Under the pieces are notes generated by a model. It made no database searches and had not been told where the DNA came from. It saw only the letters and a list, made by a program, of their open reading frames with translations. Position numbers and translations under genes: made by a program. Below, piece after piece: positions 5,398 through 18,034 of a DNA stretch of 20,177 nt. This DNA comes from CBDUXP01 sp965371225 [NCBI: uncultured bacterium] (GTDB taxonomy: Bacteria > Abyssobacteria > SURF-5 > CBDUXP01), in assembly GCA_965371225.1 (NCBI GenBank), contig CBDUXP010000066.1, positions 1 through 20,177 of the forward strand, given 5' to 3'. Within the stretch, counting starts at the first letter, position 1; each line of letters starts with the position of its first letter.

Positions 5398-6510
5398 TCA
5401 GGTTGCCGGTGCGCCGGTGAAGTGACCGATCCCGAGTTCTACCCCGAGAGCGGTGCGTAGGTCGGCGCCGCCGGTGTCCAGCGGGATCCCCGTGGCATCC
5501 GCCATGCGGTCGTTCTTGCTGAAGACGGCGGCGACGGCCGCTGCATCCACCGCACCCTCCGGACCGACGGCGGCGATCAGGTCCCCGCGTATCTCCGCGA
5601 GCGCCGCGTCGTCCTCACCGAGCACGGCTTCCGCGAACGCGGCGAGCGTCCGTCCGTGCGGTATACCGGCGTCGCCGTCGCCCGCGCCGTTCACGATGGC
5701 CAGATCGGCTTCTTCGTTCACCGCATCGCCGCTCCACCGGAGCAGCATCGCATGCGCGCTCGTTCAGTAGAAGCAGCCGTTGAGCGCCGAGACGCGGGCC
5801 GCGATCAACTCGATCTGCGGGCGGGTGATCGCGCGGCCACCGTTGCTAGCGACTTCCATCAACTGCCCCATGGGCATGTAGTGCGCCTCACCGAACTCCT
5901 GGTGCTGGCGCACTTCGGCGGGCACGAGGCTCAGCGCGCGGGCGATATAGGGCGCGTAATCGGCCCCCCCATACACGTCGGCCTCCGGGCCCGTCGCGTC
6001 CGCCGGCGCGATCATGGGCACCCACGCGCGGTCGTCCTTCGCTGACGCGGGCCGCAGGCGCGACGGCTCGCCCGGCACCGGGACCGGCAGTTCCGGCAGG
6101 GGTGCGCCGATGCCCCGCGCGAACGTGTCGACGCAGACGACGCTGACGACTACGCCCACGACCTCCACGTACTGCGCATCGTCGAGTTCTTGGGCCATCA
6201 CCCTGTCGAACCAACTCTTAGTCAGGCGGCCGGGATCCGTGCGCACCCGGTGAATGACATCGACGACCGGCTCAGGCAGTCCCCCCAGACTGTCGTGGGC
6301 CCCGTCGATGGCGTAGGGCGACAGGGCATCCTTGCGCTCGCGGCAGAGGCGGCAGTGCAGGGCGTGACGCGTCTCGGCCGCGATGGCGACCCGTTCGGCG
6401 CCGGTCCACCACGTGCCCGGTTCCGCGAGGCGCTGCCAGGCGCGGCGGTGCGTCGCGTCCAGGTCCTCGCGCACGGCCAGCGGAGCAGAGGCGTAAGAAA
6501 GTTCGGTCAT
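5398..6510 (-). CDS. AhpD-like alkylhydroperoxidase-related selenoprotein (UGA read as selenocysteine)
   Basis: Read through one in-frame TGA (5766-5764), this gene encodes 370 residues with selenocysteine at position 249. Before the TGA the frame ends RPQIELIAARVSALNGCFY; after it continues TSAHAMLLRWSGDAVNEEADLA. The joined site C246-F-Y-U249-T-S-A-H253 is the AhpD/carboxymuconolactone-decarboxylase motif CxxCxxxH with the second cysteine replaced by Sec, and E234 upstream fits the family glutamate. An N-terminal half with H52-C-R-L-C56 (ERKDALSP) looks like a second, related pair. AhpD proteins are thiol-dependent peroxidase/reductase partners, so peroxide reduction is the likely role. AhpD-like selenoproteins are known from marine metagenomes. 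ATG 6510 follows GGAGGG and starts 22 nt after the desaturase stop, so it is the last gene of the operon. Stopping at the TGA would cut the protein inside its active site. Confidence 0.9.
5722..5752 (-). promoter_or_regulatory. Bacterial SECIS-like hairpin downstream of the Sec UGA
   Basis: On the mRNA, GCUGCUCC pairs with GGAGCGGC (8 bp, one G-U pair) around a GGU loop at 5738-5736. A U-G pair and, after one A-A mismatch, four further pairs extend the stem. The apical loop begins 26 nt after the UGA and has G at its first two positions. The published bSECIS model requires a 3-14-nt loop with a guanine in its first two positions, about 16-37 nt from the UGA. This hairpin meets each criterion, judged by hand. 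Confidence 0.8.
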
Positions 6511-6532: not shown

Positions 6533-7441
6533 TCAGCGGGCGCTGAGCACCTGGCGGAACCCGCGGTCGATGCGGATATTGTGGGCGTCCAATTCGGCGC
6601 GCATCCCGCGGAATACCCGGCGGATGCGGTAGAACGGCACGCGTGGGTACAAGTGGTGGATGATGTGTACGTCTTCGCCCATCATCAGGATGGCGCTTCC
6701 GGGGAAGAACGTGGTCCGCGTTGACTGATAGGGCGCCTCACTGTCGTGCGGATGATGTGGAATCCACTGGAACACGACCATGAGGTACAGCATCGCCAGG
6801 CGCGCGGGCACGTACCAGAGCAAGACTACCTCAGCCCCGTACCCCGTTGCGATGCCGGCGGCCAGGACCGCAAGCTGGACCCGCCGCACCAGCAGGCCGT
6901 GGCGCAGGGCCTCACCGATGCGGGGCAGTTCCGTCCACTTGGGCCGCGCGGCGTCCGCCACCTTCGGCATCACCGGCAGCAACCCCATCAGGGTGTGTTG
7001 CGCCCAGCGCCGCGACACATCCCACAACGTCCCCTTCACGTCCACGTCCGGATCCAGGTCGGGATTGTTCAGGTACGCGTGGTGCAGCGCGTGCATTTCC
7101 CGGTGCGTGCGGAACGGGATGGTCAACGGCAGGCTCGCCAACCAGCCGATACTTTCGTTGAGCCAAGTCAAGCGCGGGTGCGTCCCGTAGATGTTGCGGT
7201 GGCAGGCTTCGTGAAACGGCATGTAGAAGCAGAACCCCAGCCACCCGTTGATGAGGCACGCGGCCCAGTACGGCACCGTCCCGCCCACCGCGAGCGCGAT
7301 CGTCCCCACATAACACGCGGTGATGCCGATGAAATACGCGACGGTTCCCCACTGAAACGACTCGATGTTCGCCGCGGCGATGCGATCCTGGGTGGGCGAC
7401 GTGACGGAAGTCGCGGGTGACGCGACAGTGGCCTCTGTCAT
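6533..7441 (-). CDS. Membrane fatty-acid desaturase (PF00487-like)
   Basis: This 302-residue integral membrane protein has the di-iron histidine boxes of the fatty-acid desaturase / hydroxylase superfamily: HEACH (77-81), HREMHALHH (113-121) and HIIHH (259-263), plus HHPH at 229-232. Hydrophobic stretches lie around residues 33-53, 58-75, 96-110, 186-209 and 211-226. Such enzymes use O2 and electrons from ferredoxin or a similar donor to insert a double bond into a fatty acyl chain, or to hydroxylate carotenoid rings. I favour a fatty-acyl substrate from the His-box spacing and the TetR neighbour, but a carotene hydroxylase/ketolase-like role is not excluded. The ATG at 7441 follows AAGGAGGGAGG. 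It lies 57 nt after the TetR gene and 22 nt before the selenoprotein gene, so all three probably form one operon. Confidence 0.9.
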   Translation of the reverse strand: MTEATVASPATSVTSPTQDRIAAANIESFQWGTVAYFIGITACYVGTIALAVGGTVPYWAACLINGWLGFCFYMPFHEACHRNIYGTHPRLTWLNESIGWLASLPLTIPFRTHREMHALHHAYLNNPDLDPDVDVKGTLWDVSRRWAQHTLMGLLPVMPKVADAARPKWTELPRIGEALRHGLLVRRVQLAVLAAGIATGYGAEVVLLWYVPARLAMLYLMVVFQWIPHHPHDSEAPYQSTRTTFFPGSAILMMGEDVHIIHHLYPRVPFYRIRRVFRGMRAELDAHNIRIDRGFRQVLSAR

Positions 7442-7498: not shown

Positions 7499-8185
7499 CT
7501 ACGCGGCATCCGCGGTCGCGGCGCCGTCCAATGCGCGGACCAGCAGCGAAACTTGCGGGGCGACAGCGTCAAGTTCCGCTTGCAGCCTCGGGCGCGCCGC
7601 CGGGGTGGCGACCGCCATCAGCACCAGCGCCCAACAGTGCAACACTTGCGTGTGAAACGCGGTGTCATCGAAGAGGCCGCGCGCCCAGTGGCGCACCGCG
7701 TGGCTGTACGCCGAGAGAATCTGGTGCGCGAGCAGCGCAGGTTCCACGTCCGCGGTCAAGAACCCTTCGGCCGTCGCCGCGGCGATGGCCTGTTCTTGCA
7801 GGAGCCGGCAGCGGCGCCGAATTGCGCGATCCTCGGGAGCACTCGAACCGAAATCCAGGGCCGCGATGACCGGACGGTACAGCGTTCCGTTCGCCGTGAA
7901 CTGTTCGATCGACACGGTCACGATCGCGCGCGACCGGTCAATGGGATCGTCAAGCGCCAGCCGGTCCAGCGTCGCCGACAAGCCATCCAAACCCTCATTG
8001 AAGAGGGCGTACAAGATGGGTTCCTTCGCGCCGTAGAGGTTGTACAGCGTCCCGGTGCTGACCTCCGCTGCGACTGCCAGCCTGCGCATGGACAGGCCTT
8101 CGACCCCGCCGGCCACGATGAGCTGTCGCGCGGCCTCCAGTATGCGGTTGCGCCGCCGCGCTTTTCCCAGTTCCCGAACATTCAT
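7499..8185 (-). CDS. TetR/AcrR-family transcriptional regulator
   Basis: This 228-residue protein has the TetR DNA-binding domain at residues 11-60: RILEAARQLIVAGGVEGLSM, then RRLAVAAEVSTGTLYNLYGAKEPIL. The remaining ligand-binding part is helical and unassigned. The ATG at 8185-8183 was chosen over the longer ORF (to 8302), because a strong promoter lies directly upstream and the family starts here. It is first in the operon with the desaturase and the selenoprotein. TetR-type regulators of desaturases such as DesT and FabR sense acyl-CoA composition, so a similar effector is a reasonable guess, but this is inferred only from context. Autoregulation is likely, because the palindrome at 8199-8216 lies in its own promoter. 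Confidence 0.92.
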   Translation of the reverse strand: MNVRELGKARRRNRILEAARQLIVAGGVEGLSMRRLAVAAEVSTGTLYNLYGAKEPILYALFNEGLDGLSATLDRLALDDPIDRSRAIVTVSIEQFTANGTLYRPVIAALDFGSSAPEDRAIRRRCRLLQEQAIAAATAEGFLTADVEPALLAHQILSAYSHAVRHWARGLFDDTAFHTQVLHCWALVLMAVATPAARPRLQAELDAVAPQVSLLVRALDGAATADAA

Positions 8186-8196
8186 GACGCTCCATA

Positions 8197-8224
8197 ATAT
8201 TAGTACGCGTTCTAATTTTGTCAA
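8197..8224 (-). promoter_or_regulatory. Strong sigma-70 promoter of the TetR-desaturase-selenoprotein operon
   Basis: On the minus strand, TTGACA (8224-8219) and TAATAT (8202-8197) are separated by 16 nt. The -35 is a full consensus match and the -10 is one mismatch off. The TetR ATG is 11 nt downstream of the -10, so the leader is very short. No other convincing promoter is seen before the desaturase gene. Confidence 0.75.
8199..8216. promoter_or_regulatory. Probable TetR operator (18-bp palindrome in the promoter spacer)
   Basis: ATTAGTACGCGTTCTAAT is an inverted repeat with a single mismatched pair, centred on ACGCGT. It fills the spacer between the -35 and -10 boxes of the TetR promoter, where a bound repressor would block RNA polymerase. 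The size and position are typical of TetR autoregulatory sites. Confidence 0.65.
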
Positions 8225-8315
8225 GTGGGCGGATTCTCCCCCTCGGGCCGCCCGGAGCCCACCTGCCCGGCCGGCCGACCCGATTCCCCGTGCCGCCGCC
8301 ACCCCGGGGCTGCCC

Positions 8316-8321
8316 TATAAT
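8316..8321 (+). promoter_or_regulatory. Consensus -10 box (TATAAT) just before the histidine kinase start
   Basis: TATAAT lies 10 nt before the GTG at 8332, so the transcript would have a leader of only a few nucleotides. No good -35 box is visible at 17 nt upstream. The nearest plus-strand alternative start is internal to the transmembrane segment. Confidence 0.45.
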
Positions 8322-8331
8322 CACAGCTGCC

Positions 8332-10341
8332 GTGGCCCAAACGTTTTCCCGCCGTCCCCGCATCATTCCCTCGCGCCTGCTCGTGCTGGGCGTGGGGACG
8401 ACCATGGTTGGCCTCTGCGTCGCCGGCATCATGGTCCTCACGCCAGGGCTGCGGGCGCGGCAGCGGTTGGCCGAGGGTATCCGGGGCCAGGTGTCCACCG
8501 TGAGTACCCTGCTGGGGGGGGCCACCGTGCCGTCGCCGGAGGAATTGGACCGGGCACTGGCAAACATGACCGCGACAGTCGCTGCGGTCCCCGACCTGGA
8601 TGCCCTCGCGTTCATCGCGATCGACTCCGGCCAGCTCTTCCGCCACGAGGGCGGGCGGATGGTCCCCATGGGCACCCTGCAAGACCCCGCCGTCTGGCTG
8701 CGGTTGCGGAACGGGGAGCGCGCGATTGTGGTCGAGACGGACCGGTACGTGATCTACGAAGGCTTGGAGATCCCCGGGCAGGATCTCGGAGTGCAGCTCG
8801 TCGTCAGCCAGGAGGCGTTCGCGCGGACGGAAGCGCAACGGAACGTGTCGACCGTGGTCGGCGGGATGATCCTGTCCACCCTCGTGGGCACGCTCCTCAT
8901 GCTCCTGTTGGCGCGGCGCCTGGAAGAATCCCGCGGCGAGTTGGAATTGGTGTTGGAATCCACCCAGGAACCGGTGATGATGGTGGATGGGAATCAACGG
9001 CTGGTGTTCGCGAACCGGCCGGCGCGGCTCCTGTTCGGCCGGGGCGGGGACGACCGGTTGGCCGGCCAGCCGCTGCTGTCTTTGTGTCCGACGCCCGAAG
9101 TGGCGCAGTTCTTTACGTCGCTGCTTCTGGACGAGCGCCCGAGCAGCAATGAGTTGCACGCGTCCATGCCCGGCTATGCGCAGGATGCGGTGTTCCGCGG
9201 CCAGGCCGTGCCCGTGCTCACGGAGATCGGCCGCACGTTGGGCAGTCTGCTCGTGCTGCGGAACGTCACGCTGGAGAAGCGGCTCGAGGATCGGCGCATT
9301 TCGCAGACGATTCACGAGCTGAAGGGGATGCTCGGGGAGGCGACGGGCTTCATTCGTCAAGTGGTGACCCGGTTGCCGCACGAGGACCGGCCCGAGAATC
9401 AGATGTACCTGAACCTCAGTCTTGAGAAGTTGCAGCACTGTTACATCACCGTGGGCGGCATGGTGCGGAACATCGCGAGCGCCTTCATGCCGGAGGACAT
9501 GGACCTGCATCCCCGGCACGAGGATTTGGGCGACCTGGTGCGCCGCAACGCGCAGAGCTTCGCGGCCATGCTGCCGCCGGACCAGCCGCATCCCGCCGTG
9601 GAGGTGCACGTGCCCGACCGGCTCACGGCCGTGTACTGCGATGCGGAGGCCATTTCGCGCATCATGATGAACCTGATGCGCAACGCCCACCAGCACTGCC
9701 CCCGCGGCGCCATCGACGTCCGCGTGGTGGAGAACGGCGCGCAGGTCGAAGTGTCCGTGACAGACGCCGGCAGTGGCATCGCCGCGGAACACCTGTCCCG
9801 CGTATTCGAGCCGCACGAGAGTTTCCGCCGCGGAGGGACGGGGATGGGACTGTCGGTCTGCCGCGATTTCGTCCGCGCGCAGGGCGGGGACATCTGGGCG
9901 GAGTCGGAGGGCCGGGGGCGTGGCGCGACCTTCACCTTCGCGCTGGCCAAGTCCCAGCCGGCGATCCTGGCGAAGGACGCCACCGTCGTGGGCCACCTGG
10001 GCATCCGGTGCGCCGAGATGGGGTATGAACCGACCGTGCTCGACGACCTCTTGACCGTCGTGAAGCACGTGGCCGAACTCCACCCGAACTTCATCCTGCT
10101 CGACCTGGATTTGCGTGGAACCTTGACGGGCCCCTCCCTGGCGTACCGGCTCAAGCGCAGCGAAAGCGTCGGCCGGATCCCGATCGTGGCGGTGGCGGCC
10201 GATCTGGATGCGGCCCGGGCCGCCATCGCCCGGTATGAGGGCCTCGAACTGGATGCGTTCATCGACCGGGACTGTACGGCCGAGCGCTTTGCGTCGATCG
10301 TGCAGATCATGGACGCGTACTGGTACGTTTCCCAGTCGTAG
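8332..10341 (+). CDS. Membrane hybrid sensor histidine kinase with C-terminal receiver-like domain
   Basis: From GTG 8332 the protein has 669 residues. TM1 (about 15-36) follows a basic start (RRPRIIPSR), then comes a periplasmic region of about 135 residues and TM2 (about 172-194). A PAS-like segment follows (ESTQEPVMMVDGNQRLVFAN). The presumed phosphorylated histidine is H328 in TIHELKGML, in an atypical dimerisation helix. The ATPase domain has N447/N451 (MMNLMRNAHQH), the G1 box VTDAGSG (D478) and the G2 box GGTGMGLS (about 501-507). The C-terminal domain has a candidate phosphoacceptor in FILLDLDL (D591) but lacks the usual acidic pair and the conserved K-P motif. It would act through the NtrC-type regulator encoded 9 nt downstream. 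A TTG at 8218 would give a longer start lying in the TetR promoter, so I reject it. The signal sensed is unknown. Confidence 0.88.
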   Translation: MAQTFSRRPRIIPSRLLVLGVGTTMVGLCVAGIMVLTPGLRARQRLAEGIRGQVSTVSTLLGGATVPSPEELDRALANMTATVAAVPDLDALAFIAIDSGQLFRHEGGRMVPMGTLQDPAVWLRLRNGERAIVVETDRYVIYEGLEIPGQDLGVQLVVSQEAFARTEAQRNVSTVVGGMILSTLVGTLLMLLLARRLEESRGELELVLESTQEPVMMVDGNQRLVFANRPARLLFGRGGDDRLAGQPLLSLCPTPEVAQFFTSLLLDERPSSNELHASMPGYAQDAVFRGQAVPVLTEIGRTLGSLLVLRNVTLEKRLEDRRISQTIHELKGMLGEATGFIRQVVTRLPHEDRPENQMYLNLSLEKLQHCYITVGGMVRNIASAFMPEDMDLHPRHEDLGDLVRRNAQSFAAMLPPDQPHPAVEVHVPDRLTAVYCDAEAISRIMMNLMRNAHQHCPRGAIDVRVVENGAQVEVSVTDAGSGIAAEHLSRVFEPHESFRRGGTGMGLSVCRDFVRAQGGDIWAESEGRGRGATFTFALAKSQPAILAKDATVVGHLGIRCAEMGYEPTVLDDLLTVVKHVAELHPNFILLDLDLRGTLTGPSLAYRLKRSESVGRIPIVAVAADLDAARAAIARYEGLELDAFIDRDCTAERFASIVQIMDAYWYVSQS

Positions 10342-10350
10342 GGTCGGCCT

Positions 10351-11712
10351 ATGTCAGACGCCAATATTCTCATCATCGACGACGAGTTGGAGACCGTCGA
10401 ACCCATCATCCTGTACCTCCAGCAGGAAGGCCACCGGGTGCAGGTGGCCTTCGACCGCGCGGAGGCCTTGGACCTGCTCGCGAAAGAGCCGTTCCACTTC
10501 GTGTTTCTCGACTGGGTGCTGGAAACGGAGATCGGCCTCGAAGTGCTGACGGCCCTGCACGCGCAGCATCCTTACCTGGACATCGTCGTATTGAGCGGCA
10601 ATGCCTCGCTGGAAATGGCCACCCAGGCAATCTCTCATGGCGCGTACGACATCGTGCGCAAAGAGCGGGCGGCGAACGGCGAGGACTGGGGCGTGCCGCC
10701 GCGGCTGCCCGTGGTGCTCAACAACCTGCTCCACCGCCAAATGGATCGCGACGTCCTGGCCCTGCACCTGGACGGGAAATACCACATGATCGGGGACGGG
10801 GCGCACATGCAGGCCCTGGACGAGGAGATCGAACGCGTGGCGGGCACGGACCTCACCGTGCTCATCCACGGGGAGAGCGGCACCGGCAAGGAGTTGGTCG
10901 CGCACAACATCCACCGCCGCAGCCCGCGCCGAAACGGCCCGTTTGTGCCGGTGAACTGCAGCGCGCTGACCATCACCCTCGTGGAGAGCGAACTGTTCGG
11001 CCATGAGAAGGGCGCGTTTACCGGCGCCGCCTCGGCGCACGCGGGCAAGTTCGAACTCGCGTCGGGCGGGACCCTGTTCCTCGACGAAATCGGGGACTTG
11101 AGCTTGGAGGCCCAGGCGAAACTCTTGCGCGTCCTGGAAGATAAAACCGTGATGCGCGTCGGCGGGACGAAGGGCATCCAGGTGGACGTGCGGGTGCTGT
11201 GCGCCACGAATCGCGACATCGATGCGCGGATGGCGGAAGGCCTGTTCCGCGAAGACCTCCGGTTCCGCCTGGGCTATCGGATCGAATGTCTGCCCCTGCG
11301 CGACCGCCCGGAGGACCTCCCGGCCCTGTGCGATTTTCTGTTGGACACCATCTGCCACGAACTGCATCGGCCGGTGCTCCATCTGACGGCCGACGCGCGG
11401 GACGCCCTGGGCGCCTACCACTGGCCGGGCAACGTGCGGCAATTGCGCAACGTGTTGCAGTGGGCGGTGCTCCGCTGCAGCGGAGAAATTACCGGCGCCG
11501 TCCTGCACGAGCACGAAGATCTCGGCGGGACCCGGGGAGCGCCGGCCATGCGCTATGACGGGCTGACCTTGCGGGAGGCGATCCGCGCGTTCGAGATTGA
11601 TCTGATCTCCCGGGTGCTCGCGCAGAGCACGAACAAGCGCGAAGCGGCGCGCGCGCTCGGTGTCGATGAAGGAAATTTCAGCAAGAAACTGAAACAGCTT
11701 GGTCTGTCGTAG
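10351..11712 (+). CDS. Sigma-54-dependent response regulator (NtrC family)
   Basis: This 453-residue protein has the full NtrC architecture. The receiver (1-105) has acidic residues D10/D11, phosphoacceptor D54 in FVFLDWVLE and a lysine at K104, but no proline after it. The AAA+ domain has Walker A GESGTGK (174-180), the sigma-54-contacting loop GAFTGA (221-226), Walker B FLDEIGD (243-249) and arginine-rich sensor residues near REDLRFRL (300-307). A Fis-type HTH ends the protein (about 425-447, REAARALGVDEGNFSKKL). It should activate sigma-54 promoters when phosphorylated by the adjacent kinase. The ATG at 10351 is 9 nt after the kinase stop. The obvious target is the -24/-12 promoter at 11910-11925, 198 bp downstream of its own stop. 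Confidence 0.95.
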   Translation: MSDANILIIDDELETVEPIILYLQQEGHRVQVAFDRAEALDLLAKEPFHFVFLDWVLETEIGLEVLTALHAQHPYLDIVVLSGNASLEMATQAISHGAYDIVRKERAANGEDWGVPPRLPVVLNNLLHRQMDRDVLALHLDGKYHMIGDGAHMQALDEEIERVAGTDLTVLIHGESGTGKELVAHNIHRRSPRRNGPFVPVNCSALTITLVESELFGHEKGAFTGAASAHAGKFELASGGTLFLDEIGDLSLEAQAKLLRVLEDKTVMRVGGTKGIQVDVRVLCATNRDIDARMAEGLFREDLRFRLGYRIECLPLRDRPEDLPALCDFLLDTICHELHRPVLHLTADARDALGAYHWPGNVRQLRNVLQWAVLRCSGEITGAVLHEHEDLGGTRGAPAMRYDGLTLREAIRAFEIDLISRVLAQSTNKREAARALGVDEGNFSKKLKQLGLS

Positions 11713-11713
11713 A

Positions 11714-11738
11714 GGTACGTACCGGCCGCCCCGGCCGG
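11714..11738. terminator. GC-rich palindrome and hairpin after the NtrC gene
   Basis: Just after the stop codon lies the palindrome GGTACGTACC (11714-11723). It overlaps a stem of CCGGCC (11722-11727) and GGCCGG (11733-11738) with a GCCCC loop. No U-tract follows, so this may be a weak or Rho-assisted terminator, or a protein-binding site. The rest of the 239-bp intergenic region (11713-11951) is visibly less GC-rich than the genes around it. Confidence 0.35.
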
Positions 11739-11876
11739 GCCTGTGCCGGGATGGAGCGCGCGCATCCATGTGGAATGTACAAGTGATCCCCCGTCAGGGC
11801 GCGGCTTTTCAGGATACTTTCGTCAAATGAGTAGCCAGAATCTGTTGGAATTACAGTGGTTATGCCTCACCCATCA

Positions 11877-11887
11877 CACAGACTGTG
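11877..11887. promoter_or_regulatory. Inverted repeat upstream of the sigma-54 promoter, candidate activator site
   Basis: CACAG-A-CTGTG is a perfect 5-bp inverted repeat, 22 nt before the -24 element. The half-site CACAGA recurs at 11924-11929 and, inverted (TCTGTG), at 11949-11954. It could be bound by the Fis-type HTH of the upstream regulator, although NtrC enhancers usually lie farther away. Confidence 0.3.
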
Positions 11888-11909
11888 CTGAATGAGCCAT
11901 TAAACGGCT

Positions 11910-11925
11910 TGGCCTTGTCCTTGCA
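11910..11925 (+). promoter_or_regulatory. Sigma-54 (-24/-12) promoter of the receiver-kinase pair
   Basis: TGGCCTTGTCCTTGCA fits the sigma-54 consensus TGGCACGNNNNTTGCW in spacing, with TGGC at -24 and TTGCA at -12. Transcription would begin about 11936, leaving a leader of about 16 nt before the GTG at 11952. The gene directly upstream encodes an NtrC-family activator with an intact GAFTGA loop. Confidence 0.75.
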
Positions 11926-11951
11926 CAGATTAGGGGTGCGAGGGTAAGTCT

Positions 11952-12335
11952 GTGTATTCTGACGCGCACAAGGTTCTCATAGTCGACGACGAGTTGGATT
12001 CCGTCGCGCCGATCCTGCAGTACTTTGAATCGCAGGCGTGGACCGTGTTGACCGCCTGTGATGAGCGGGAGGCGGTCATGGAACTGGAGCTCCATCGGCC
12101 CGGGCTGGTGCTGCTGGATTTGGTCTTAGAGCGGGAGAGCGGTTTGGAGATTCTGAGACGCATTCGGGAACTCGAACCCGGCGCACGGGTGGTCATCATC
12201 AGCCGGTACTTTGATACCGAACTGATCAAGCAGAGCTTGCGCTGCGGCGCGGTCGGGTTCGTGCAAAAAGCCGGGCCCGGGCAACTACCGGCCGGTTTTA
12301 CCGCGCTGGTCGAAGGCGCGATCGCTTCCTCGTAA
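11952..12335 (+). CDS. Stand-alone CheY-like receiver domain protein
   Basis: This 127-residue protein is a single receiver domain with no output domain. The acidic pair is D12/D13 in VLIVDDEL, the phosphoacceptor D56 in LVLLDLVLE, a switch serine at S84 (VIISRYF) and the conserved lysine K106 in FVQKAG. The GTG start at 11952 is preceded by GAGGGTAAG and sits 16 nt after the predicted sigma-54 start. Its sequence resembles the receiver of the upstream NtrC-type protein (both DDEL-x2-V-x-PI and LD-x-VLE-x-E-x-GLE), suggesting a local duplication. Only 8 nt separate it from the Ser/Thr kinase gene, so the pair is co-transcribed. It may be a phosphate sink, a competitor, or an adaptor or target of the protein kinase. 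Confidence 0.88.
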   Translation: MYSDAHKVLIVDDELDSVAPILQYFESQAWTVLTACDEREAVMELELHRPGLVLLDLVLERESGLEILRRIRELEPGARVVIISRYFDTELIKQSLRCGAVGFVQKAGPGQLPAGFTALVEGAIASS

Positions 12336-12343
12336 CCCGACGC

Positions 12344-13318
12344 ATGGCCAAGAAGAAGGATTTCGAGGCGGCGTACCGCAAGTCGCTGGCCGCCCATGGC
12401 TTTCAGTATCGCAAGGTGATCGGTCGCGGCGGCATGAGTCGGGTGGACGAAGTGCTGCACAAGACCAGCGGGCAGATTTACGCGATCAAGCACCTGGGCC
12501 CTCACACCCCCGACGATAAGCGCGATCGGTATCGCCGCACGCTGCGCCGCGAAGGCGAGTACCAGTTCGATCATCCGAACGTTATGCGCGTGATCCAATC
12601 CTTCGCGGACGGCGGCAACATATTCCTCGTCATGCCGCGCATGCAGCGCAATCTGAAGCACCTGTTGGACAAGGGGAAGACCTTCCCCATGAACCTCCTC
12701 ATCGACGTCATCCACCAGACCGTCGCCGGCCTGATCTACCTCCACCAGCAGGGGGTGGTCCACCGGGACTTGAAGCCCTCGAACGTCCTGTACAACTACG
12801 ACGGTACGGACCTGCACGTGGTGGTCGCGGATTTCGGGCTTAGCCTGGATAGTTGGGCGCAGTTAGCGCGCATGTTCAAGCGCACCATTCGCGCGCACGT
12901 GACCAAAGCCGGCACCCCCACGTACGCCTCGCCCGAACAGATGCGGCGTGGCGGCCGCTGCGATCGCCGCTCCGACGTGTATTCCCTGGGGCGAATCATG
13001 GACGACCTGTTTGGCGAAGCCATGACGCCCGGCGGCGAAACGCCGAAGACGCCGCAGCAACGCCGCCGCCTGCGCCACCTGGAGAAGGGCGTGTACCTCT
13101 ATAAGCGCGAAGGCTCTGCGGTGCTGGGCGGCAAAGTGGTCAACCGCCTGCCGTACGAACTGCAGCAGCTCATCCTCGAATGTCTCCAACGGGAACCCGA
13201 CCGCCGGCCGCAGGACGTGTCCGCCATCTACTACGCGCTCAGCAAGATCCTGATGCGGAACCGCACCCGGAGCATGTCGCACGCCATGGTGAGCGCCTCC
13301 GCCACCGCCGCTCCCTAA
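12344..13318 (+). CDS. Soluble Hanks-type Ser/Thr protein kinase
   Basis: This 324-residue protein has the eukaryotic-like kinase fold. The glycine loop is GRGGMSRV (27-34), the ATP-binding lysine K49 is in AIKH, E70 fits the alpha-C glutamate, HRDLKPSN is at 140-147 with catalytic D142 and N147, DFG at 163-165, and the activation segment ends TPTYASPEQ. SDVYSLG follows. All catalytic residues are present, so it should be active. There is no transmembrane helix or PASTA/extracellular domain, unlike the PknB type; the tail (about 290-324) is basic and short. It follows a receiver by 8 nt with no clear ribosome-binding site, suggesting translational coupling. The substrate is unknown; the receiver encoded upstream is a natural candidate regulator. 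Confidence 0.93.
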   Translation: MAKKKDFEAAYRKSLAAHGFQYRKVIGRGGMSRVDEVLHKTSGQIYAIKHLGPHTPDDKRDRYRRTLRREGEYQFDHPNVMRVIQSFADGGNIFLVMPRMQRNLKHLLDKGKTFPMNLLIDVIHQTVAGLIYLHQQGVVHRDLKPSNVLYNYDGTDLHVVVADFGLSLDSWAQLARMFKRTIRAHVTKAGTPTYASPEQMRRGGRCDRRSDVYSLGRIMDDLFGEAMTPGGETPKTPQQRRRLRHLEKGVYLYKREGSAVLGGKVVNRLPYELQQLILECLQREPDRRPQDVSAIYYALSKILMRNRTRSMSHAMVSASATAAP

Positions 13319-15818: not shown

Positions 15819-17270
15819 CTACGCCTCCTGAGCTGCCTTGAGGGTCGGTGCGCCGACCATCGCCGTCGCGCCACCGCCGGGCGCGCTGCCCGGACCGCCG
15901 GCCGCGGCGTCGGCGGGATACGCCTCCATGCCCATCTCGCTGAGGTCGAGCCCTTCGTACTCCTGTTCGGGCGTGACGCGCAGGCCGATGGTCATACGGA
16001 TGATGGACCAGACCACGAAGGAGACGACCACGGTGAACACGCCGACCGCGACGACGCCGATGGCCTGCGTGACCAGCTGGCTGGTGCCGCCGCCAAAGAA
16101 CAGGCCCTTCATGCCTGCCGGGGCGCCGGGACTAGCGAACAGGCCTACCGCCAAAGTGCCCCAGATGCCGCACACCAGGTGCACACTGGTGGCGCCGACC
16201 GGGTCATCGATCTTCACGCGGTCGAACGCCATGACCGAGAAGACCACGACGACGCCGGCGATGAAGCCGATGATGACCGACGAGGTAATACCCACCGCGG
16301 CGCAGGGGGCTGTGATCGCCACGAGCCCCGCGAGGGCGCCATTCACGATCATGGACAGGTCGTACCCGCCCAGCCGCATGCGCGCGGTGATGGTCGCCCC
16401 GATGACACCCGCTGAGGCGGCCATGGCGGTAGTGGTGGCGATGTGGGCGATGGCGCCGCCATCGGCGGCCATGGTGCTGCCGGGGTTGAAGCCGAACCAG
16501 CCGAGCCAGAGCACCAAGCCGCCCAACGTGGCCAGGGCCATGTTATGCCCGGGCAAGGGATGGACGCTGCCGTCCTTGCGGTACTTGCCCAGGCGCGGGC
16601 CGAGCAAGAACGCCCCGACGAGCGCGGCCCAGCCGCCGACCGAGTGCACCACCGTCGAACCGGCGAAATCGTGAAACCCCATGTCCTGCAGCCAGCCTTC
16701 ACCCCAGATCCAGTGGCCGGTCACGGGGTACATCACTGCCACCAGCACGAACGCGAACGCGATGTACGCAGGGAAGTGGATGCGCTCGGCCACGGCCCCC
16801 GACACGATGGTGGCGGCGGTCACGGCAAAGACCAACTGGAAGAAGAACTTAGCAAGCAAGGGCACGCCCGCCCACGCGATCGAACCGTAGACGCCCTCGT
16901 ATCCGTCGATCACCGGACTATTGTCTGCGCCCAGCAGCGCCAATCCGGACGAGCCGAACCAATCGGTGCCGTCGCCGAACATGATCGCGAAGCCCAGCAG
17001 CCAGAAGGCGATGGACCCGATGGCGAACACGATGAAGTTCTTCGCCAGGATGTTGACGGTGTTCTTGGCGCGGCAGAAGCCGCTCTCCACCAAGGCGAAT
17101 CCCGCGTTCATGAAGAAGACGAGGAACCCGGCGATCATCACCCAGAGGGTATCCATCGTGATCTGCAGATTGGCGAGCGCTTCGGCGGTGGTGGGCTCCT
17201 CGGCCAGCGCCACGGTGGGCGCCGCCACCAGAGCTGCGAGCAGTCCGATTCCTGGGATCCATTTCCGCAT
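15819..17270 (-). CDS. amtB: Ammonium transporter AmtB
   Basis: This is a 483-residue Amt/MEP/Rh channel that moves ammonium across the inner membrane. A signal peptide (MRKWIPGIGLLAALVAAPTVALA, residues 1-23) precedes the eleven-helix core. The twin pore histidines are H209 (STVVHSVGG) and H364 (TSVHLVCG), equivalent to H168 and H318 of E. coli AmtB, and GHWIWG, FNPGST and VSGAVAERI are typical. The cytoplasmic tail keeps the GlnK-binding segment (EYEGLDLSEMGMEAYP). The tail then runs on about 30 Ala/Gly/Pro-rich residues. The ATG at 17270 follows AAGGAG by 8 nt; the upstream in-frame residues have no family likeness. glnK is directly upstream, the classical order, but a strong terminator lies between, so amtB probably also uses its own sigma-54-like promoter at 17350-17366. 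Confidence 0.96.
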   Translation of the reverse strand: MRKWIPGIGLLAALVAAPTVALAEEPTTAEALANLQITMDTLWVMIAGFLVFFMNAGFALVESGFCRAKNTVNILAKNFIVFAIGSIAFWLLGFAIMFGDGTDWFGSSGLALLGADNSPVIDGYEGVYGSIAWAGVPLLAKFFFQLVFAVTAATIVSGAVAERIHFPAYIAFAFVLVAVMYPVTGHWIWGEGWLQDMGFHDFAGSTVVHSVGGWAALVGAFLLGPRLGKYRKDGSVHPLPGHNMALATLGGLVLWLGWFGFNPGSTMAADGGAIAHIATTTAMAASAGVIGATITARMRLGGYDLSMIVNGALAGLVAITAPCAAVGITSSVIIGFIAGVVVVFSVMAFDRVKIDDPVGATSVHLVCGIWGTLAVGLFASPGAPAGMKGLFFGGGTSQLVTQAIGVVAVGVFTVVVSFVVWSIIRMTIGLRVTPEQEYEGLDLSEMGMEAYPADAAAGGPGSAPGGGATAMVGAPTLKAAQEA

Positions 17271-17349
17271 CGTGCGTTTCTCCTTCTCGTCCTCGTCTGA
17301 CGTGCACTTCGACGCCGCACGCCCCCGGGCGGCGGTCGGCGGGGTGATG

Positions 17350-17366
17350 TTCAAGGGCGGTGCCAA
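17350..17366 (-). promoter_or_regulatory. Sigma-54-like promoter of amtB
   Basis: On the minus strand TTGGCACCGCCCTTGAA has an excellent -24 element (TTGGCAC) and the correct spacing to a -12 element reading TTGAA instead of TTGCA. Transcription would start near 17339, about 70 nt before the amtB ATG. The same -12 variant occurs before glnK. Confidence 0.55.
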
Positions 17367-17464
17367 TGGGTGGTCGCGGGGTAACCCGTTGGGCGGCGGC
17401 GGGTTGGCTCGGTGGTGGCCGACGGCCGGCCGGCCGGAATCTGACTAAAGGACAGGCGCTTGCT

Positions 17465-17499
17465 AAAAAAACGGGCAGCGCCACCCCTGTGGCGCTGCC
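17465..17499 (-). terminator. Strong intrinsic terminator between glnK and amtB
   Basis: On the minus strand an 11-bp perfect stem (GGCAGCGCCAC / GTGGCGCTGCC, loop AGGG) is followed by CG and a run of seven T residues. It lies 31 nt after the glnK stop codon and is the clearest intrinsic terminator in the window. Readthrough or attenuation would let part of the transcript reach amtB. Confidence 0.9.
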
Positions 17500-17529
17500 G
17501 CACGCACGCGAAAGTGATCGGGCGCCGGG

Positions 17530-17868
17530 TTACAGCGCGTCGTTGCCCGACTCGCCGGTCCGGATGCGCACCGCGCCCTCCACCGGCAGCGTAAAGACCT
17601 TGCCATCCCCGATCTTGTTCGAGTTCGCCGTCTTGACGATCGTGTCGACCACCCGTTGGGCCAGGTCCTCCTGGACGAAAATTTCCAACTGGACCTTCGG
17701 CGTGAACTCCACTTCGTACTCCGCGCCGCGATACGTTTCCTTATGGCCCTTCTGACGGCCGTACCCCTTGACCTCCGTCACCGTCAGGCCTTGCACCCCC
17801 AACTCCTGCAAGGCGTCTTTCACTTCTTCCAATTTAAAGGGCTTGATGATGGCAATGACGAGTTTCAT
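17530..17868 (-). CDS. glnK: PII nitrogen-regulatory protein GlnK/GlnB
   Basis: This 112-residue PII protein binds ATP/ADP and 2-oxoglutarate and controls AmtB and nitrogen assimilation. It starts MKLVIAIIKPFKLEEVKDAL. The T-loop has YRGAEYEVEF with Y51, the uridylylation site, and the ATP-binding part includes KTANSNKIGDGKVFTLPVE. ATG 17868 follows AGGAG; an in-frame start 45 nt further upstream adds no PII sequence. The gene precedes amtB in the usual order, so the product most likely is GlnK, gating AmtB when nitrogen is plentiful. A sigma-54-like promoter (18035-18051) predicts NtrC control. The PII signature is unambiguous; the GlnK rather than GlnB label rests on amtB linkage. Confidence 0.96.
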   Translation of the reverse strand: MKLVIAIIKPFKLEEVKDALQELGVQGLTVTEVKGYGRQKGHKETYRGAEYEVEFTPKVQLEIFVQEDLAQRVVDTIVKTANSNKIGDGKVFTLPVEGAVRIRTGESGNDAL

Positions 17869-17884
17869 GCTCGCTCCTGTCTCG

Positions 17885-17904
17885 CCTGCGCCGCGAGGCG
17901 CAGG
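17885..17904 (-). promoter_or_regulatory. Perfect 8-bp hairpin in the glnK leader next to the ribosome-binding site
   Basis: CCTGCGCC and GGCGCAGG pair around a four-base loop. On the transcript the stem ends 16 nt before the start codon and directly precedes the AGGAG. It could modulate ribosome access or stabilise the mRNA. The leader is about 155 nt if the sigma-54 promoter is correct. Confidence 0.45.
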
Positions 17905-18034
17905 ATCGTCCACACGCGTCGGCGGGCCTCGCCGGGCGGCGCATCAGTATACCGGGTCGGCGCACGCCCCTCGCAGAGGGTGCGCGGGGCCCCGCACGGT
18001 GTCTGGTCCACGTGCAATGTCCCCGCGCTCACCG

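Follow-up and report, generated by a model that had tools for sequence, protein, structure and literature searches.

The closest described system appears in PMC1088965 (2005) as hypothetical protein 1, for which that paper gives four CXXU sequences, a count of Cys homologues, and a SECIS prediction. A 2026 review (PMC13188914) lists the NCBIfam family NF041238 as "AhpD-related protein (hypothetical protein 1, Sargasso Sea metagenome)" with a CxxU motif. The CFYUT family and its CxxU/Sec site are therefore already in print in these two sources; a search of a literature collection under the name "CFYUT" found no paper. Marine metagenomes also contain the AhpD-like 1 and 2 selenoproteins of PMC2398784, which resemble the CFYUT protein in having CxxU within a CMD/AhpD core but are assigned in that paper to COG2128 and pfam02627.

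Single-domain AhpD and peroxidase-related proteins (6k40, 2prr, and the Mycobacterium tuberculosis AhpD 1gu9) are similar to the C-terminal lobe of the CFYUT protein in sequence and, for 6k40, in fold. They differ from it in that the CFYUT protein would have two lobes per chain and Sec replacing the second Cys. Human sestrin2 is described in PMC4674687 as twofold pseudo-symmetric, like an AhpD-type dimer, and as relying for its activity on Cys125, Tyr127, and His132 in the N-terminal domain; the AhpD-type protein of R. eutropha is described in the same paper. Bacterial fused double-AhpD analogues of sestrins (Corynebacterium, Comamonas, Rokubacteria, and YciW) are reported in PMC11429811, along with the sestrin leucine pocket and the GATOR2-binding DDYDY motif, and two of these analogues have cysteines in the C-terminal lobe only. 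They share the two AhpD-like lobes with the CFYUT protein, and the account of them in PMC11429811 does not present them as selenoproteins. Here, we compare with these systems a gene found in a 20,177-nt stretch of DNA, the whole of which is referred to as the window.

A CFYUT-family gene with an in-frame UGA

The gene lies on the minus strand; it starts with an ATG at 6510 and is closed by a TGA at 5400-5398 (Table 1). It had been entered in an ORF list as a frame of 248 amino acids (6510..5764) closed by a TGA; gene calling that halts at this UGA cuts the protein at residue 248 and loses one third of it. The preliminary description had reported the sequence C-F-Y-stop-T-S-A-H in frame and 121 further codons. 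Both observations hold, with the UGA at 5766-5764, the coordinates as given, and the strand, which had not been named, being minus.

The product read through the UGA matched NF041238 ("AhpD_rel_CFYUT, alkylhydroperoxidase-related (seleno)protein") with 489.8 bits against a cut-off of 175. The match spans residues 13-365 of the protein and positions 1-356 of the 357 in the model, and the protein carries C-F-Y-TGA-T with the UGA at the fourth position; the Pfam match is confined to a CMD core at residues 226-273. On the evidence of its sequence, the gene is a member of the known CFYUT selenoprotein family. It has in common with NF041238 and the Sargasso Sea hypothetical protein 1 the near end-to-end match, the CxxU, the UGA, and a SECIS-type hairpin; no defining difference was found, and its nearest relative, L001, is only about 57% identical. 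The two-part form of the protein, which had earlier been put forward as novel, is already described by the 357-position model and is normal for the family.

The length of the open frame is by itself weak evidence for coding past the UGA. At the base composition of the window, a stop-free run of 120 codons is expected by chance in about 6% of cases, and the case for coding must therefore come from relatives. A scan of genome contigs identified six related loci, five of which cover the UGA site. All five have a stop at this position, continue in frame, and are conserved downstream; thus, close homologues ending at the same point, which had been named as an observation that would speak against Sec, were not seen. 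After the UGA, 49% of the amino acids were identical to those of L001 over 120 codons and 38% to those of L002 over 121 codons, as compared to 62% (245 codons) and 45% (243 codons) before it, and in both comparisons codon position 3 differed more than positions 1 and 2 on either side of the UGA. The identity together with the third-position excess points to protein-coding selection beyond the UGA, and we conclude from these comparisons that the downstream part is under such selection, somewhat looser than that on the upstream part.

Table 1. Coordinates of the features in the window.
Feature	Position	Strand	Remarks
CFYUT-family gene, predicted selenoprotein	5398..6510	minus	370 residues, Sec at 249 (TGA read as U)
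In-frame UGA, predicted Sec codon 249	5764..5766	minus	TGA in 94/94 member rows >100 bits, TGC in L081
CxxU active-site motif C246-F-Y-U249-T-S-A-H253 (predicted)	5752..5775	minus	conservation in 59 members
Bacterial-SECIS-type hairpin	5728..5746	minus	7-bp stem, 5-nt loop, invariant G; alignment A1 columns 21-39
N-terminal C53-R-L-C56	6343..6354	minus	both Cys in 57/95 aligned members
Fatty acid desaturase / carotene-hydroxylase-like gene	6533..7441	minus	PF00487; best NCBIfam match CrtR-type, below cut-off
TetR-type regulator	7499..8302	minus	PF00440

Matches to NF041238 over the cut-off were present in all six genomes of the first six loci, in 57 of 377 genomes from the phylum of G001, in 2 of 251 from the phylum of G003, and in 54 of 138 from the order of G006. 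Plasmids yielded no match. In several loci, paired CFYUT genes lie close together, either on opposite strands (L093, L094, and L095) or in tandem (L082).

For the comparison of the UGA site, we used 94 member rows scoring above 100 bits, the window included. These are not all distinct genes, as the gene of L046 also occurs in L095, and they represent a part of all family places found (members from the order of G006 come from 14 of its 54 genomes with the family). Twelve further rows that scored no more than 100 bits (10 with TGA and 2 with TGC) were set aside, and two motif matches (CTG and GCG) were dropped because they were located elsewhere in over-long read-through frames. All 94 rows carry TGA at the site. 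The search for a Cys codon in homologues, which the preliminary description had suggested, yielded one Cys version among members, L081 (one of the two TGC rows set aside), which scores 193.2 bits against the NF041238 cut-off of 175 and is without the hairpin. L081 lies at G757:C4:32179-33117, and its genome keeps SelA; this locus is a predicted Sec/Cys exchange without loss of the Sec trait.

Active site, fold, and proposed chemistry

In alignment A3, which comprises 59 of the 95 members and no other sequences, E234, C246, position 249, and H253 are invariant, while F247 and Y248 are at least 90% conserved. The residue following Sec varies (U-L in L012, U-M in L132, and U-V in several loci of the order of G006), and thus the T in the name CFYUT is not universal. 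The spacing of E234, C246, Y248, U249, and H253 equals that of Glu74, Cys86, Tyr88, Cys89, and His93 in the AhpD-type protein of R. eutropha.

We modeled the structure from a six-sequence alignment with Cys in place of Sec (mean pLDDT 82.9, pTM 0.88). The best structural matches were to sestrin2, with the lobes in the same order (Z 16.9, rmsd 3.4, 241 residues, model 1-343), and the C-terminal lobe matched the AhpD 6k40 (Z 12.3, 178 residues, model 159-354). Foldseek alone gave no match below an E of 0.001, with 6k40 at 0.012 and sestrin2 at 0.19 at best. PDB sequences matched by the 59-member profile were AhpD, peroxidase-related, or CMD proteins (6k40 at E 1e-15), and at E up to 10 the profile found 13 PDB sequences, no sestrin chain among them. 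A comparison of the two lobes by hhalign aligned only 36 columns (probability 14, P 0.0019), and thus the inter-lobe repeat rests on the structure model. Folded alone without an alignment, the N-terminal lobe gave a poor model (pLDDT 52).

The new point emerging from this analysis is the similarity of the model to sestrin2 across both lobes, with the predicted redox site in the C-terminal lobe. In the literature searched, we did not come across a two-lobed, sestrin-like protein that carries Sec in its C-terminal lobe. In the model, the CFYUT protein and sestrin2 both have two AhpD-like lobes per chain, and in both the active lobe carries Cys, a Tyr at +2, and a His at +7. In contrast to the CFYUT protein, sestrin2 has its active site in the N-terminal Sesn-A and Leu128 rather than a predicted Sec at +3. 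The N-terminal C53 of the window protein is followed by Leu55 at +2 and Lys60 at +7, and the full motif is found at C246. If the sestrin-like fold is true, this would be a bacterial selenoenzyme that shares its scaffold with a human sensor of stress and nutrients, and the division of labor between lobes in fused AhpD proteins would be open to direct test. A more far-reaching proposal is that CFYUT proteins form a bacterial branch that uses Sec within the lineage of fused double-AhpD proteins to which the sestrins belong. In this view, the CxxC of the N-terminal lobe would be a shuttle supplying a CxxU peroxidase center in the C-terminal lobe, and the loss of the N-terminal Cys in part of the family would parallel the division of labor between sestrin lobes; this we consider doubtful.

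With respect to the mechanism, the chain would fold as two AhpD-like lobes, of which the C-terminal one would be a hydroperoxidase or thiol oxidoreductase center. Either U249 or C246, probably the Sec, would attack the hydroperoxide, and U249 and C246 would then form a selenenylsulfide, with E234, Y248, and H253 serving as a proton relay; the enzyme would be regenerated by a thiol donor. The N-terminal lobe would be mainly structural; where its CxxC is kept, as is the case here, it may pass on electrons.

We lean toward peroxidase-type chemistry, because the proton-relay spacing matches AhpD-type peroxidases and sestrin2 and because the best PDB sequence matches are AhpD or peroxidase-related proteins. 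These same observations make it less likely, although by no means remote, that the protein is a Sec protein with another redox chemistry, such as reductive dehalogenation or disulfide exchange. The debrominase Bmp8 is also among the fold matches (Z 11.8), and thus the type of reaction is not determined by the fold; in addition, no conserved neighbor was found that points to a substrate. As a whole, a CFYUT Sec protein acting through the chemistry proposed above is likely to be the best explanation of the locus.

A hairpin downstream of the UGA and the reading of the codon

The hairpin starts 17 nt past the UGA, and its columns (21-39 of alignment A1, which consists of 88 distinct 45-nt rows) are counted from the U of the UGA. 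The second base of the loop is G in all 88 distinct rows. As the main control, synonymous codons were resampled from each gene's own usage. Across the 94 rows, an average of 6.66 of the 7 stem pairs was observed as compared to 3.79 expected; the complete stem (7/7 pairs) was present in 72 of the 94 rows, and the hairpin was more stable than the synonymous resamples in all rows but one (93/94). Codon +8 is CTC in 94/94 rows, where 39.2 were expected, and codon +11 is AGC in 84 rows (25.7 expected). The first control, in which codons were shuffled within columns, showed no difference (-13.83 versus -13.74 for 42 nt, -15.1 versus -15.28 for 48 nt, and -17.77 versus -18.06 for 54 nt), because such shuffling keeps the conserved columns. 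We infer from the codon-level test that the hairpin is preserved by selection on synonymous sites, and the test defines this element for the CFYUT family. In its position directly behind the UGA and in the G of its small loop at the apex, the hairpin is of the kind expected of a bacterial selenoprotein gene.

Covariation was compared with 500 shuffles, which ignore kinship. At one stem pair, A-U takes the place of C-G in 20 rows. The number of cells with changes on both sides was 25 versus 8.0 in the shuffles, none of which reached 25, and none of the 500 reached the observed covariation score or the observed number of cells paired. The latter amounted to 94.8% of the stem cells, as compared to 27.8-54.1% for slid partners. 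Two of the five measures were not above the shuffles, namely pairs changed on both sides (2 versus 1.7) and further pair types (8 versus 6.7, reached by 58 of 500). A covariance model built from the hairpin rows scored the window element at 55.2 bits and the next match in the window at 6.3; as the window was among the sequences used for training, this score shows uniqueness within the window rather than independent detection. Outside the training set, two short AhpD-like loci with TGA scored 18.0 (L060) and 13.8 bits (L059).

Next, we evaluated the Sec machinery in the genomes of the relatives. A tRNA-Sec over the cut-off was found in 6/6 genomes of the first loci, in five of them at 65-77 bits; that of G004 is marginal (49.2 bits against a cut-off of 47, near other weak matches). 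SelB was over the cut-off in four of these six genomes, and in G001 and G003 the best matches lie at contig ends and are below it. In the phylum of G001, SelA was present in 56 of 57 genomes with the family as compared to 182 of 320 others (Fisher P ~1e-11, not corrected for kinship), the exception being G192, which has a CFYUT gene and in which no SelA was found. The order of G006 showed no enrichment of SelA over the cut-off (44/54 family genomes versus 66/84 others). These per-genome SelA tallies were counted by eye. Within the window, no tRNA gene was found.

Together, the family match, the TGA in 94/94 rows with a single Cys version, the hairpin, and the Sec machinery of relatives support the reading of the UGA as selenocysteine given in the preliminary description, and we regard Sec decoding at this codon as close to certain. 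By the established route of Sec decoding in bacteria, the hairpin would be bound by SelB with its Sec-tRNA, and Sec would be inserted at the UGA. The same evidence makes it very improbable that the UGA is decoded otherwise, be it as Trp in a UGA = Trp code, by plain readthrough, or with the 248-residue form being the functional one: the only member found without TGA, L081, has Cys and not Trp, the gene itself terminates at a TGA, and the 248-amino acid ORF was the only broken ORF noted; the Sec machinery of relatives, the SECIS-type hairpin downstream, and the conservation of the part past the UGA in the five relatives covering it also speak against such readings. Although a TGA is one base away from the Cys codons, an ordinary nonsense change in a pseudogene or a misread TGC or TGT can be dismissed with near certainty, as all 94 member rows, from many genomes, share a TGA at this position, the sequence downstream is conserved as coding, and the hairpin is held by selection on silent sites.

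Neighboring genes

The Sec gene is the last of a minus-strand row that begins with the TetR-type regulator (8302-7499) and the desaturase (7441-6533); the gaps are 57 and 22 nt, the desaturase adjoining the selenoprotein gene 22 nt upstream on the same strand. This arrangement suggests a local operon, and the local context would perhaps point to lipid or carotenoid peroxides as substrate. However, a tblastn search at 1e-8 detected no counterpart of the desaturase, the TetR regulator, or the VOC, DUF1330, and 1100-1870 proteins of the window at any of the 90 loci of relatives, whereas the acyl-CoA ligase of the window was found at three and an SDR at six of them in the same search. Since only 51 of the 90 loci extend over at least 5 kb, the absence of neighbors is weakly tested. 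No such row of genes was observed next to the relatives' genes, and the operon context therefore carries little weight; we set it aside as a functional clue. The novelty attributed earlier to the operon is accordingly not borne out, with desaturase and TetR relatives at 0/90 loci, many of which have short flanks. Clustering of flanking ORFs at 54 loci recovered the gene itself and groups resembling its other frames (48, 21, and 9 loci), and each of the remaining groups among the 16 listed was present at no more than 7 loci.

Elsewhere in the window, an ammonium transporter (over the amt cut-off) stands beside a PII-like protein on the minus strand at 15819-17913, an ordinary nitrogen pair. On the plus strand, genes for a sensor kinase, a sigma-54 response regulator, a lone receiver-type protein, and a Ser/Thr kinase follow one another in a row at 8218-13318.

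Other AhpD-like genes with a TGA at the CxxU position

The loci L059 and L061-L068, from genomes of the phylum of G003, contain AhpD-like genes, mostly of about 200 codons, with a TGA at the same CxxU position. They are distinguished from CFYUT members, which score above 100 bits, by scores of 28-47 bits and by a C-x-[FY]-U motif. These genes likely encode further AhpD-like selenoproteins; their motifs are C-R-[FY]-U, C-H-Y-U, C-V-Y-U, and C-Q-Y-U.
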